From Halorussus ruber (lineage in GTDB: Archaea > Halobacteriota > Halobacteria > Halobacteriales > Haladaptataceae), in the NCBI RefSeq assembly GCF_004765785.1, contig NZ_SBIT01000015.1, positions 1-64,000 on the forward strand: DNA of 64,000 nt, in the 5' to 3' direction. Both the position numbers and the translations under genes were made by a program. Each line of letters starts with the position of its first letter. The stretch's first letter is position 1. Under the pieces are notes generated by a model that saw only the letters and a program-made list of their open reading frames with translations, was not told the origin of the DNA and made no database searches. Of this stretch, positions 5,269-59,718 are shown one piece after another.

Positions 5269-6804
5269 TCACTCCCCGCGTTTCGGCAGGTCCTCGACGG
5301 CAGGCCCCTCCAAGACCTCGCCGTCGAGCGAGAACCGCGAGCCGTGGCAGGGACAATCCCACGACTGCTCGCCGTCGTTCCAGCGGACGATGCAGTCCAG
5401 ATGCGGGCAGACCGCGGACTGGACGTGCAGGTCGCCCTCGTCGTCGCGGGCCGCGGCGAGGGGCTTGCCGTCCCGGCGCACGACTTTGCCTTCCCCCGGC
5501 GCGACGTCAGCGTCCTTGCCGCCGAACAGGGTCCCGGCCCAGTCCTTCGTGAACTCCTTGCCGACGTTGAGATTCTCCGAGACGAGTTCCTTGCCCGCGG
5601 CCTCGGGGTCGATGCGGTTCGGGTCGAAGGCGTCGGCCCACCGGGGGTCCTCGCCCTGCGCGAATTTGGCGAGCATCCGGCCCGCGGCGGTCCCGTTGGT
5701 CATGCCCCACCCGCCGAATCCCGTGGCGAGGTAGACGCCCTCTGTCGTCGGGCCGAGTTCGCCCACGTAGGGAATCTGGTCCACCGAGACGTAGTCCTGC
5801 GTGGACCACCGGTACTCGACCGACTCGACGTCGAAGTGTTCGCGGGCCTGCTGTTCCAGTTTGCGGTACCGCTCGGCGGTCGAACCGCCCTGCCCGGTCT
5901 TGTGGTTCTGCCCGCCGACGAGCAGCATCGGCCCCTCGGCGCTCGGGTGGGGCCGGGCCGAGAAGTACGGCGACTTGTCGCGGTAGAACATCCCCTCCGG
6001 CGACTCCTCGGCGAGTTCGACCGCCAGCACGTAGGAGCGCTTGGGGCACTGGCGCGCGAAGTACAAGCCGGGGTCCTCGATGGGGAAGTGGGTGGTCAGC
6101 AGGACCGATTCGGCGGTGACGACCCCGCGCTCGGTCTCGACGCGGCAGTGGTCGCCGCCGTCGCGGTCGTCCACCGCGGTCACTTTCGTCTGCTCGAAGA
6201 TGTCGGCCTCGCCGCTCGCTTCCGGAATCTGGTCGGCGAGCGCGAGGAGGTACTTCCGAGGGTGGAACTGCGCCTGCTCGCCGAACTTGACCGCGCCGGG
6301 GGTCTCGTCGGGGAAGGGCGGGTCCGCGACGAACTCGGCGGGGAGGTCGAGTCCCTCCGCCACGGTGGCCTCGCGGCTTATCGCGCCGCGCTGGTCCTCG
6401 TCCGCGGCGTAGGTGTACGCCGGGAGGCGCTCGAAGTTGCAGTCGATGTCGTGGGCCTCGACTCTGTCGGCTATCTCCTCGATTGCGGCCGCGTTGGCTT
6501 TGGCGTACTGGCGGGCGGCGTCCCGGCCGTGCTTGTCGAGGAGGTCGTCGTAAATCAGGCCGTGCTGGGCGGTGACCTTCGCGGTCGTCTTGCCCGTGAC
6601 GCCCTCGACGATGCGGTCGGATTCGAGGAGCGCGACCGACTGGCCCTCCTCCGCGGCGTGAAGCGCGGCGGTCACGCCCGCGATGCCCCCGCCGACGACC
6701 GCGGTATCGACCGCCCGGTCGCCGTCGAGCGGCGCGTAGTCGGTCCGCTCGGTCGTCTCCAGCCACAGCGATGCGTCCCGTCCCGGTAAATCTCTGTCAC
6801 TCAT
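5269..6804 (-). CDS. FAD-dependent oxidoreductase with C-terminal Rieske domain
   Basis: The 511-residue protein starts with a DAO-type FAD fold: VGGGIAGVTAA at about 37-47 is the dinucleotide-binding glycine motif, and GKTTAKVTAQHGLIY follows. It ends with a Rieske [2Fe-2S] domain whose ligands are visible as C466-P-H468 and C484-P-C-H487 (CX1H...CX2H). The fusion suggests electron flow between the flavin and a Rieske centre in one polypeptide. The substrate is not identifiable from sequence; annotated relatives are usually just called 'FAD-dependent oxidoreductase'. No signal peptide is seen, so the protein is likely cytoplasmic. It is a single gene flanked by structured elements A and B. 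Confidence 0.9.
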   Translation of the reverse strand: MSDRDLPGRDASLWLETTERTDYAPLDGDRAVDTAVVGGGIAGVTAALHAAEEGQSVALLESDRIVEGVTGKTTAKVTAQHGLIYDDLLDKHGRDAARQYAKANAAAIEEIADRVEAHDIDCNFERLPAYTYAADEDQRGAISREATVAEGLDLPAEFVADPPFPDETPGAVKFGEQAQFHPRKYLLALADQIPEASGEADIFEQTKVTAVDDRDGGDHCRVETERGVVTAESVLLTTHFPIEDPGLYFARQCPKRSYVLAVELAEESPEGMFYRDKSPYFSARPHPSAEGPMLLVGGQNHKTGQGGSTAERYRKLEQQAREHFDVESVEYRWSTQDYVSVDQIPYVGELGPTTEGVYLATGFGGWGMTNGTAAGRMLAKFAQGEDPRWADAFDPNRIDPEAAGKELVSENLNVGKEFTKDWAGTLFGGKDADVAPGEGKVVRRDGKPLAAARDDEGDLHVQSAVCPHLDCIVRWNDGEQSWDCPCHGSRFSLDGEVLEGPAVEDLPKRGE

Positions 6805-15031: not shown

Positions 15032-15171
15032 ATACTGCTGTCCTATCAATTCCTGCGGTTCAGAACGCGAGGCTTTCGAGACCACGACTCTAGTGGTATA
15101 TCTGAACGCGACACGACTTCATCCTAGCCGGTGCCTCAACGACTTTGAGGCTGGACTGTGTTGTCCCGGCC

Positions 15172-16170
15172 ATGACCGAGGCAGTCTTTCTGACTAGCGA
15201 GGAGGTCGCCGGACTCGCGTCGCCCGCCGAATACGTCGAGGCAGTGCGCGAGGGCTACCGCCAGCGAGGCGAGGGCGCACCGGCCCGACCGCGAGCGAAG
15301 TTGACCAACGCCGACCCGCCGGGGATGCTGACCGACTACTCGGCCATCCTCCCCGAGACCGGCGCGATGGGCGGGTACATGTACGCCGCCGGGTTCGGCG
15401 AGGAGGACGCGTGGTTCATGACGCCGCTGTTCGACGCCGAGTCGGGCGAACCGCTCGCGCTGCTGGACGGCGCGAGCATGAATCCCTTCAAGACCGGCGC
15501 GGCTGGCGCGGTCGGCACCGACGCGCTGGCCCGCGAGGACGCCGAGACGCTGGCGGTCATCGGCGCGGGCTCGCAAGCCCGCGGCCAGCTCCGCGCCATC
15601 GACACCGTTCGGGACCTCGAAAGCGTCTGGGTCTACTCGCCGACCAAGGAGTCCCGCGAGGAGTTCGCGGCCGAGATGAACGAGCAAATCGACCCCTCGG
15701 TCGCCGCCGTCGCCTCCAGCGCGGCCGCCGTCGAGGAGGCCGACATCGTCGTCACCGCCACCACCGCGGGCGACCCCGTCTTCGACGGCGACTTGCTAGC
15801 GGCGGGGACCCACGTCACCGCGATGGGCCAGTACCACCCCAACAAGCGCGAACTCGACGCCAGAACCATCGAGCGCGCCAAGTACGTGCCGGACCTCCGC
15901 GACCGCGTCGAGCAGGACGCCGGGTCGTTCATCGCGGCGCTCGACGAAGGAGCCATCTCGGAGGACCACGTCCACGCGGAACTCGGCGAAGTAGTCGCGG
16001 GCGAAGCGCCGGGCAGGGAGTCCGACGAGGAAATCACGGTCTTCGACAGCGGCGGCACCGGCATCGAGACGGTCGCGTCGGCCCACATGCTCTACGAGAA
16101 GGCCAAAGACGAGGGTCTCGGCTCGGAAATCTCGTTCGCTCCGGCGAGCGAGGCGCTCACGGGTCGATAA
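15172..16170 (+). CDS. Ornithine cyclodeaminase / mu-crystallin / alanine dehydrogenase family protein
   Basis: The 332-residue protein has the NAD(P)-binding motif VIGAGSQARGQL near residues 126-137 and the typical N-terminal block MLTDYSAILPETGAMGGYMYAAG. Members include archaeal alanine dehydrogenase, ornithine cyclodeaminase and ketimine reductases. I cannot separate these by eye, though the neutral name 'ornithine cyclodeaminase family' is safe. The ATG at 15172 is preferred to a TTG at 15145. Structured element C lies upstream. Confidence 0.9.
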   Translation: MTEAVFLTSEEVAGLASPAEYVEAVREGYRQRGEGAPARPRAKLTNADPPGMLTDYSAILPETGAMGGYMYAAGFGEEDAWFMTPLFDAESGEPLALLDGASMNPFKTGAAGAVGTDALAREDAETLAVIGAGSQARGQLRAIDTVRDLESVWVYSPTKESREEFAAEMNEQIDPSVAAVASSAAAVEEADIVVTATTAGDPVFDGDLLAAGTHVTAMGQYHPNKRELDARTIERAKYVPDLRDRVEQDAGSFIAALDEGAISEDHVHAELGEVVAGEAPGRESDEEITVFDSGGTGIETVASAHMLYEKAKDEGLGSEISFAPASEALTGR

Positions 16171-16445
16171 TTCGGAGAAGTGAGACAGCGAAGGCGAGTC
16201 ACGCCTGTTCAGGCCGCCAGCATCATCGCCGCGATGAACGACGAGTTGGTCCCGGCCTTGGTTTCGTTTTTCTTGCGCTCTACGTCCGTCAGATTACGAG
16301 GGTGTTGCCATCGCATACCTCTACAAAATATTTACTCACACTTGAGTATGTTGCTCTGGTTATGGGTTGCCAGAGGCTCGCAAATCACTTGTGATGGCAT
16401 GGCACAAATGACGTAAGATTTTTAAATTTCTGATACAACATCTCG
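16171..16445. other. AT-rich island, left part
   Basis: Base composition shifts to A/T-rich here compared with the genes on both sides. The region holds a possible 35-residue gene on the minus strand and the TATA box of a candidate RNA gene. No transposase or integrase remnant is recognisable. Confidence 0.5.
16209..16316 (-). CDS. Possible small protein of 35 residues
   Basis: The frame starts at an ATG (16316) and ends at TGA (16209-16211). The peptide reads MRWQHPRNLTDVERKKNETK followed by AGTNSSFIAAMMLAA, and its second half uses GC-rich haloarchaeal codons although the surroundings are A/T-rich. It could be a real small gene or the surviving 3' end of a larger, lost gene. A TATA-like AAATATTTT lies about 20 nt upstream. 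No family recognised. Confidence 0.35.
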   Translation of the reverse strand: MRWQHPRNLTDVERKKNETKAGTNSSFIAAMMLAA

Positions 16446-16685
16446 GTAGGTGAGCCCTACCTGAAACACCTATAGCCGGGACACATCCACGCCAAGGGTC
16501 CTTCCGAACCCAATGACAAGAAAAAACGAATCACCTGGCTATAGTATAGTGAAAATAAAAGTAGAGCGAGTTAGCCTCTCAGTTCGGTTGAAATCTAGGC
16601 ACATCTGCCTTAGTGCCTTGTTAGTTGGTCTAACCGGAAGGTTAGTACTCTAATCAGCGTCTCGGGCTCACCATCGGACTTTTAA
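16446..16685 (+). ncRNA. Candidate structured RNA gene
   Basis: A TATA box TTTTTAAATTT at 16419-16429 predicts a start near 16449. The expected start is also the start of GGTGAGCCC (16449-16457), which pairs perfectly with GGGCTCACC (16664-16672). Inside are CTATAGCC (16470-16477) with GGCTATAG (16537-16544), GGGT...ACCC (16496-16511) and CTAGGCA...TGCCTTAG (16595-16613). A T-rich end, ACTTTTAATTT, follows the closing stem. Promoter, closing stem and terminator together suggest a folded RNA of about 235 nt. No known family is recognised, and it is much shorter than archaeal RNase P RNA. Confidence 0.5.
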
Positions 16686-16728
16686 TTTAGAAAACAACTA
16701 TATGAAATAATAGTGTGACGATGAGTTC

Positions 16729-17748
16729 TTAGAACCCCAACGCCTGCACCAACGTCATCCCACTCGCCAAAGCTCCGACCAGATACCCGCCGATTGCCCC
16801 GCCGTTCAGCAGGGGGAGTCCGGCGTGCGCCCGGCCCTTCATGACCATCCACAGAAGCACGAGGAGGCCCGCAATCGTGCCGACCATCGAGGTCAGGGCG
16901 GGCAGGTTGAGCGCGAGGCCCGAAATCAGCGGCTCGGCGGGCGCGAAAAAGGCCGCGCTGGCGACCATCACCGTGGGCATCACCGCGTCGCCCAGTCCGA
17001 TGAAGAACACGTCTCGCTCTCCCATTCCCGGGCGCTCGGCCTCGGCGTCGGTCTCGGAGGGTTCGCCGCCGTCAGCCGCGCTTGCAGTTCCTTCCTCCGG
17101 CGATTCTTCGTCCTCGGCGGCCATCCCCTCGTCGTCGAGGAAGGAGTAGGAGAGAGACAGCGGAATCACGAGGATGACGGGAATCTTCAGGTCCATCACG
17201 CCCGAGGCCAGCGTCAGCATGTGTTCGGTGCCGTAGACGCTGATGGCGTCGTAGATGGCAAGCACCGAGAGCAGGAGGATGGCCGGGAGCAGGCCGAAAC
17301 TAATGCCGAACAGTCCGGCCGCGCCAGCCCCCATCAGGACGCCCGCGGCGTCGATGACGTACCACTCGGGGTGGACCGCCAGCGCCAGCGAGACCAACCC
17401 GGCCGCGGCCAGCGCGACGACGTTGAGGGGAGCGCCCCCGAACGAGACGACCAGCCACCCCGGAATCACGACCGAGAAGACGTACCACGACAGCAGTCCG
17501 CTGGTGAAGATAATCGCCCCGCGGAGCAGCCACTGGACGTCGAGTTTGATGATGAGCAGCATCACGCCGGTCAGGACCAGCACCGCCCCGACGTAGACCA
17601 GACTGTTGGTCGGGTCCGAGGGGTTCTCGACCTGCTGGTAGCCCGCCTGCTGGAACGGCTCGACCAGCGCCAGCGCGCCGAGTTGGACGAGCAGAAACAT
17701 GAGGACCGTCAACCCGACGGCCGCGAACGCACGCGTTCGGTTCTCCAT
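16729..17748 (-). CDS. Presenilin/signal-peptide-peptidase-like (A22) intramembrane aspartyl protease
   Basis: The 339-residue protein has nine predicted helices. The two catalytic aspartates sit in the family motifs YD (AIYDAISVYGTEHM, about 187) and GLGD (FFIGLGDAVMP, about 256). The PAL motif position is occupied by GLPLLNGG near the C terminus. The loop between the two Asp helices is long, acidic and probably disordered. Archaeal PSH cleaves peptides within the membrane; natural substrates are unknown. The start at 17748 (MENRTRAF) is directly before helix 1; a longer frame upstream is rejected. Confidence 0.9.
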   Translation of the reverse strand: MENRTRAFAAVGLTVLMFLLVQLGALALVEPFQQAGYQQVENPSDPTNSLVYVGAVLVLTGVMLLIIKLDVQWLLRGAIIFTSGLLSWYVFSVVIPGWLVVSFGGAPLNVVALAAAGLVSLALAVHPEWYVIDAAGVLMGAGAAGLFGISFGLLPAILLLSVLAIYDAISVYGTEHMLTLASGVMDLKIPVILVIPLSLSYSFLDDEGMAAEDEESPEEGTASAADGGEPSETDAEAERPGMGERDVFFIGLGDAVMPTVMVASAAFFAPAEPLISGLALNLPALTSMVGTIAGLLVLLWMVMKGRAHAGLPLLNGGAIGGYLVGALASGMTLVQALGF

Positions 17749-18787: not shown

Positions 18788-19924
18788 TCAGCGACGACGC
18801 GCGAGGAGGGCCGCACCGGCGAGCGCCGCGACTGCCGCGGTGACGCCGAAGCCGGGGGTGCTTCCGGAGGACCCGTCGGCGGTCGCAGTAGTAGTCTCCT
18901 CCTGTTCCTGCATCGCGCCCTCGTCGGTGGTCGTCTCGGGCGATTCAGTCGTGGTCGGTTCGACCGTCGTCTCGGTCGCCTCGGTCGTGGTCGCGTTCGC
19001 CTCGGCGTAGGCGTCGGGGTGGAAGGCCTTCGCCATCTTCGTGATGGCGTAGACGACGCGCGGTGCGGGCTGGCTGATGTTCTCGTTGCTGACCGTGATG
19101 ACGTTGCCCTGCTTCACCGCGTCGGTGCCGTTGTAGGCCTCGGTCTCGGGGTACGCGCCGAACGCGCCGAGTTGGACGATCCACTCGGGGTTCTGCTCGA
19201 CGATGACCTCCTCGCTAATCTTCCCGTAGCCCGAGATGTTGGCCTCGGCGGCGACGTTGGTCCCGCCAGCGAGTTCGACCACGTTGTCGATGAACGTGCC
19301 CCCTCCGGCGGTCCAACCGGCGCCCTGCGAGATGAAGACCGTCGAGCGCTCGGAGTTCTCGACCGCTTCTCGGACCGTGCCGACGCGGTCTTTCATCCAC
19401 GAGACCGTCTCGGTCGCGCCCTCGCAGTTGCCCGTGAGCTGACCCATCAGTTCGGTCTTCGCGTAGATGTCTTCGACGGAGGTGGCGAAGTCGAACTTGT
19501 AGACGGTCAGTCCGGCCTCTCGGAGCTTCTGGACCGTCTCGTTCGGGATGACGTTGGGCGCGAGGACCAAGTCCGGCTCGGTCGAGACCACTTTCTCGAC
19601 GTTGACGAACTGCTGGCCGCTCCCCGAGACGTTGGTCAGCGAGTCGGTGCCGTCGAGGTAGGCGGCGTACTGAGAGACGCCGACGACCTGCGACTTACCG
19701 CCGATTTCCCACATCGTCTGGGCCGCGCTCGGCGACAGCGTGACGACTCGCTCGGGCTTCTGCTCGACCGTGACCTCGGTTCCCGTCGCGTCGGTGCTGG
19801 TGACGGGGAACGAACAACTCGACTGTGCGGCGTCTGCCGTGCCGCCGGTGACTGCTCCGACCGGCGCGACACCGGCCGCGAGCAACAGCAGGACCGCAAA
19901 AACGCTCGTAACCTTCTGTCTCAT
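18788..19924 (-). CDS. btuF: Corrinoid ABC transporter substrate-binding protein BtuF with PGF-CTERM tail
   Basis: The 378-residue protein has a secretory signal at the N terminus (about 1-24), then a helical-backbone (type III) binding fold with [19 protein letters not shown] and [10 protein letters not shown] Thr/Glu-rich spacer (about 305-350) follows, and the end is a PGF-CTERM sorting signal: STPGFG, hydrophobic helix, LARRR. It should therefore be processed by archaeosortase A, encoded at 32.5 kb, and lipid-anchored to the outer membrane face. The permease and ATPase genes follow divergently, supporting corrinoid import. Specificity for B12 is inferred from the arrangement. Confidence 0.9.
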
Positions 19925-59358: not shown

Positions 59359-59368
59359 GGGTATGAAT

Positions 59369-59677
59369 GGTGGACAGCCGGATTTGCCCGGCGTTCCGTA
59401 CCGGGGAATCCCGGTCGCGTCCTCCACCCCGCGGCCCTACGAGCGACAGGTGTCCAGTGGTCCGCTGCTCGCTTCCGCGCCTGACGGATTGCCACCGGTA
59501 AACCCCGACAGCGGCACTCCTGCGAGTGCCCGCCGAGGACCGCTGTCCCCGCAGGACGAGGCTTCGAAGTCGGCTTCCGGGGCCCGGTACGGTCTGACCG
59601 GACGCCTCCGGAATTCGGCCCCCGCTAAAGACCATAGTGCGGGTGACGAGGAGGGCCTAACTCCCCGACCTAGTCCA
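59369..59677 (-). ncRNA. 7S RNA (signal recognition particle RNA)
   Basis: On the minus strand the RNA begins near GGACTAGGTCGGGGAGTTAGG and contains the SRP helix 8 signature GTCAGGCGCGGAAGCGAGCA-GC (about 59464-59485), as in SRP RNAs of all domains. Its length of about 309 nt fits archaeal 7S RNA. A TATA-like CCCTTAAG at 59700-59707 lies 26 nt before the 5' end. Ends are approximate by a few bases. SRP19 is encoded at 18.4 kb of the same window. No protein-coding frame here has haloarchaeal composition. Confidence 0.9.
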
Positions 59678-59718
59678 TTTCGTAGTAAGTGGCCGGTGAC
59701 TTAAGGGCCTTTCGCAAA

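Follow-up and report, generated by a model that had tools for sequence, protein, structure and literature searches.

A candidate structured RNA gene in a lineage-specific AT-rich island of a Halorussus genome

Genomic setting of the island

An AT-rich stretch between two convergent haloarchaeal genes had been proposed, in a sequence-only reading, to be a new RNA gene, and the question is whether it encodes a structured RNA or is inert DNA. The window, i.e. the whole stretch of 64,000 nucleotides that was analysed, is, judging by its genes, haloarchaeal chromosomal DNA of the genus Halorussus, since it contains an archaeal SRP RNA (59368-59680, Rfam search) and a presenilin-like protease whose identity with named Halorussus proteins is 71-88% (best segment). 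The candidate sits in an intergenic region of 558 bp between the ornithine cyclodeaminase and the presenilin-like genes (Table 1), which are adjacent in most of the 18 Halorussus genomes compared, the own genome included.

The island, which is single-copy in its own genome, is flanked by the protease stop codon on one side and, on the other, by the promoter block of a conserved gene for a small protein. It had been described as A/T-rich and unlike the rest of the genome. The first part of this description agrees with the measured G+C content, but the composition is weak evidence, as 174 stretches of 240 nt with a G+C content of 50% or less were counted in the 864 kb (800 kb of the own genome plus the window) which served for the chance controls.

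Table 1. Position, strand and basis of the features discussed, counted from the first nucleotide of the window.
Feature	Position	Strand	Basis
Ornithine cyclodeaminase/mu-crystallin family gene	15145-16170	+	Pfam
Unannotated 35-aa protein gene, MRWQHPRNLTDVERKKNETKAGTNSSFIAAMMLAA	16209-16316	-	conservation, profile search
AT-rich island, 323 bp, 42% G+C	16406-16728		no counterpart in relatives
Haloarchaeal BRE/TATA-like promoter, TGACGTAAGATTTTTAAATTTC	16409-16430	+	matrix score; -40 to -19 of 16449
Candidate structured RNA, about 225-235 nt	16449-16680	+	inferred from fold and joint rarity
5' arm of closing helix, GGTGAGCCC; predicted transcript start	16449-16457	+	repeat search, promoter matrix, fold
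Internal arm CTATAGCC (16470-16477) with GGCTATAG (16537-16544)	16470-16544	+	repeat search, fold
Hairpin AGGCAC (16597-16602)/GTGCCT (16613-16618)	16597-16618	+	fold
Hairpin CTAACC/GGTTAG, 6-bp stem	16630-16645	+	fold
3' arm of closing helix, GGGCTCACC	16664-16672	+	repeat search
TTTT, possible weak termination site	16680-16683	+	direct reading
Presenilin/signal-peptide-peptidase family gene	stop end at 16729, extends upward	-	Pfam

The same site in related genomes

In the relatives the similarity of the intergenic region ends at about 16405 and is followed by unrelated sequence and then by the stop codon of the protease gene. One of the closest genomes (G002) has a G+C-rich spacer of about 64 bp at the site of the island, and G004, G005, G010, G014, G015 and G016 have a small membrane-protein gene there, on the plus strand. 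Since the relatives differ in what occupies this place, be it the membrane-protein gene or other DNA, and some have nothing there, we regard it as a turnover site and the island as a replacement specific to its lineage. The richness of the island in A/T suggests that it was acquired; no donor was found in the genomes, plasmids and phages searched.

The membrane-protein gene (...FDEAALYGVVREAVEDAILGVIGTLLL...), which lies between the 35-aa and the presenilin-like genes (loci L049, L050, L051, L052, L054 and L059), is conserved; a search of the own genome did not find it, and it has no match among the NCBIfam models. In the case of G012 (L057) a different AT-rich insert with another small ORF (MKGAVYRIRDPDGDGDVV...) occupies the site, which suggests a hotspot for acquired DNA.

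Promoter, closing helix and T-run

Promoter strength was measured with a position-fixed matrix derived from 98 leaderless-type gene starts of the own genome; an earlier matrix, which had drifted into codon periodicity, was discarded. The matrix recovers the BRE (CCAAAA, about -38) and the TATA element (T-rich, about -30), as expected for haloarchaea. Position 16449 scores 15.5 bits with zero offset, which exceeds all 98 training promoters, and the 12-nt A/T run ATTTTTAAATTT (16418-16429 by direct reading) corresponds to the TATA box that had been reported at 16419-16429, 25 nt before the 5' arm of the helix. Since the training starts were preselected for A/T at -31 to -24, AT-rich islands are the fair control, and 0.3% of their positions reach this score (P 0.003). 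A high promoter score is, however, no mark of RNA genes, since the SRP RNA and the RNase P RNA of the own genome score only 3.2 and 6.3.

The perfect pairing claimed over a distance of about 210 nt was found both by reading and by repeat search: GGTGAGCCC and GGGCTCACC pair over exactly 9 bp, with 206 nt between the arms. One such repeat alone means nothing, since 5340 perfect 9-mer inverted repeats 80-320 nt apart were counted in 864 kb (strands counted separately), and two further 9-bp ones lie within the same intergenic region. A repeat as rich in G+C as this one (7/9) arises in 0.2% of the island shuffles, by a criterion chosen post hoc. As for the internal pairs, CTATAGCC/GGCTATAG is present, with 11-nt arms which are 91% complementary, whereas CTAGGCA can pair with TGCCTTAG (16595-16601/16606-16613) only if a bulge is allowed, and the fold prefers AGGCAC/GTGCCT. 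The T-rich sequence said to follow the helix immediately is there only as a TTTT, which starts 7 nt past it.

The combination of these elements is rarer than any one of them. An A/T run at -35 to -18 together with T4 within 20 nt downstream occurs in only one of the 5340 repeats, the candidate. Approached from the promoter, 116 of 1.73 million positions reach the score of the candidate; three of these have a 9-mer repeat, for which the background rate of starts at such places is 0.6%, and only the candidate also has T4, for which a rate of about 8% was used. Promoter, helix and T4 were thus seen together once in 864 kb, against about 0.06 cases expected as estimated from the rates, with criteria taken from the finding itself. 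The earlier statement that promoter, closing helix and terminator agree on the same ends holds up as such a joint coincidence. It is unlikely that the configuration in this window is pure chance, but a scan that covers many windows is expected to meet with some cases of this kind.

The main alternative to an RNA gene is an inert acquired remnant or, more broadly, AT-rich DNA without function (left over from an acquired element, or a fast-evolving spacer of convergent genes), in which a promoter-like run, a repeat and a T-run coincide by chance. The abundance of AT-rich stretches and of 9-bp inverted repeats in the own genome, the turnover hotspot seen among the relatives and the lack of conservation of any kind agree with it, but it would have to produce a coincidence well below one expected case in 864 kb and a promoter match better than all those of the training genes, and we consider it doubtful.

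Folding and choice of strand

The plus strand (16446-16686) folds with -70.5 kcal/mol (z -2.5 to -2.7 against shuffles) and the minus strand with -81.5 kcal/mol (z -3.5 to -3.7), a value equalled by none of the shuffles. Among 140 control strands from 70 other AT-rich islands of the own genome, a z of -2.69 is reached by 2% and a z of -3.7 by 1.4%. The predicted fold of the plus-strand RNA is moderately unusual by this comparison. The minus strand folds better since some mismatches of the plus strand become G.U pairs on it. In the case of DNA with inverted repeats both strands fold, and therefore the promoter was weighed above folding in the choice of the strand. Promoter and T-run favour the plus strand, folding the minus strand.

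A structured RNA of the minus strand, or a structured 3' UTR on the mRNA of the presenilin-like protease, would be built from the same helices, stabilised by G.U pairs. Besides the lower folding energy, the position of the protease gene, which on the minus strand ends directly upstream of the island, speaks for this explanation; the minus-strand promoter match is, however, ordinary (8.5 bits, P 0.10), no T-run follows the 3' arm on that strand, and we hold it to be very unlikely. The better folding of the minus strand and the weakness of TTTT as a terminator nevertheless count against the plus-strand RNA which we prefer.

Two AT-rich stretches elsewhere in the own genome (contig C1, locus L213, about 5291-5530 and 19206-19445) have fold z values of -4.8 and -5.0, stronger than that of the candidate island, and no Rfam match.

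Searches for homologues and coding sequence

The search of Rfam 15 gave no match to the island above the gathering score, only a chance match to SNORD42 (E 7), in agreement with the earlier remark that it belongs to no known RNA family. No homologue of the island was found by sequence in the 17 other Halorussus genomes or in the 392-genome sample of the order, nor in further genomes of two families, in plasmids or in phages. A covariance model made of the island sequence and its fold recovers nothing but the island itself from the 392 order genomes, in a search whose filters lose weak matches. For the comparison of relatives for compensatory changes, which had been suggested as a check, neither blastn nor nhmmer nor the covariance model gave a homologue to compare. 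The lack of homologues, and with it of covariation, in the genomes searched counts against an RNA gene.

Several weak matches were rejected. Those which blastn gave for 16500-16525, seen in many genomes, lie inside a conserved coding sequence, FEPKDKKNQDE, and are a coincidence; this sequence presumably belongs to a PrkA-type kinase. Of two more, in L076 and L078, only the former is recovered by nhmmer (E 0.46), and in L078 no partner of the CTATAGCC is visible; both were taken as chance. Four sequence patterns gave 0 matches in viral contigs, and the 21 viral contigs which have the two arms of the closing helix, spaced 190-220 apart, are about the number estimated for chance and show no similarity to the island.

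The same searches bear on a non-autonomous, MITE-like mobile element, of which the 9-bp arms would be the terminal inverted repeats. The arms do bound a 224-bp AT-rich segment at a place where the relatives are without it. Against this, the segment is single-copy in the own genome and has no copy in the 392 order genomes, the further family genomes, plasmids and phages; there is no target-site duplication, the flanks (...TCTCGGTA and ATCGGACT...) sharing no direct repeat by the arms, and the island reaches 43 bp and 56 bp past them. We therefore take such an element to be highly improbable.

For a 46-aa ORF with rare codons (16513-16653, plus strand), neither Pfam nor NCBIfam gave a match, and the genus held no convincing relative; a weak match there has an internal stop. 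It was rejected as a gene, being neither conserved nor member of a family. The six-frame pieces of the island match no Pfam family and, among the matches listed for the loci compared, only themselves, and thus a decayed transposase was rejected as well.

The proposed RNA

Since promoter, helix and T-run coincide and Rfam holds no match, an RNA gene is the most probable of the readings, and we assign a probability of about 0.55 to a plus-strand RNA of about 225-235 nt from a lineage-specific, probably acquired AT-rich insert. The 323-bp insert, specific to this Halorussus species and probably acquired horizontally, would have displaced the spacer (or the small membrane-protein gene) between the 35-aa and the presenilin-like protease genes. 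It would carry its own plus-strand promoter and encode a structured, probably non-coding RNA, whose 5' and 3' ends would be protected by pairing in the 9-bp helix and whose transcription would end at the T-run behind it. To our knowledge, the pairing of the two ends in a closing helix is no defining feature of the intergenic sRNA class of Haloferax volcanii. The role of the RNA would most likely be that of a lineage-specific regulatory RNA or of a selfish-element RNA. That it represents a new structural class, a multi-branched archaeal RNA of about 230 nt with paired ends, present in one Halorussus lineage and derived from an as yet unsequenced mobile element or virus, seems quite unlikely.

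Comparison with known RNAs

RNase P RNA is usually encoded in one copy per genome. In the own genome this copy lies on another contig (G000:C3:82344-82754, RF00373), and the island, which RF00373 does not match, was rejected as an RNase P RNA gene. The candidate would resemble the archaeal SRP RNA (RF01857) and RNase P RNA in being a stable structured RNA of a few hundred nt, as predicted from its fold; unlike them, it is matched by neither model, and both RNAs are clearly present elsewhere in its own genome.

Novel intergenic transcripts are numerous in Haloferax volcanii, where their class was raised from 145 to 540 (PMC4983044). With hundreds of intergenic sRNAs in that species (PMC4983044), the candidate RNA would be ordinary for haloarchaea. 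It shares with them the intergenic position, a BRE/TATA-type basal promoter of its own, here at the right distance, and the absence of a recognisable protein or an ORF of known family (PMC4983044, PMC3956466). The Haloferax volcanii sRNAs were, however, observed as transcripts, whereas the candidate is predicted from the DNA sequence. The archaeal IS200/IS605-associated omega RNAs (PMC12558985) are similar in being structured RNAs with a possible mobile-element source in haloarchaea; in contrast to them, no TnpA or TnpB relic was found among the six-frame pieces of the island.

If transcribed, the candidate would be one more lineage-specific small RNA of haloarchaea, with unusually clear ends, and would test whether a promoter together with a closing helix predicts archaeal RNA genes. 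Any broader meaning of the island would require that a relative or a transcript be found.

The neighbouring 35-aa protein gene

The strongly conserved part of the intergenic region is 16207-16405, which includes an unannotated gene of a 35-aa protein. The protein, with the pattern M.W.HPRN...KK.E...GT.S.FIAAM..AA, is covered by neither a Pfam nor an NCBIfam model. A profile search found it in 82 of the 392 haloarchaeal genomes, and these 82 represent at least five families. With its upstream palindromes the gene is a better target for follow-up than the island. The conserved palindromes ACTCAAGTGTGAGT and ATCACAAGTGAT, upstream of the gene (to 16405), look like putative operators. In Halorussus ACTCAAGTGTGAGT adjoins TAAATATTT, and a similar ACTCA-TGAGTAAATA lies upstream of the 35-aa gene in a genome of another family.
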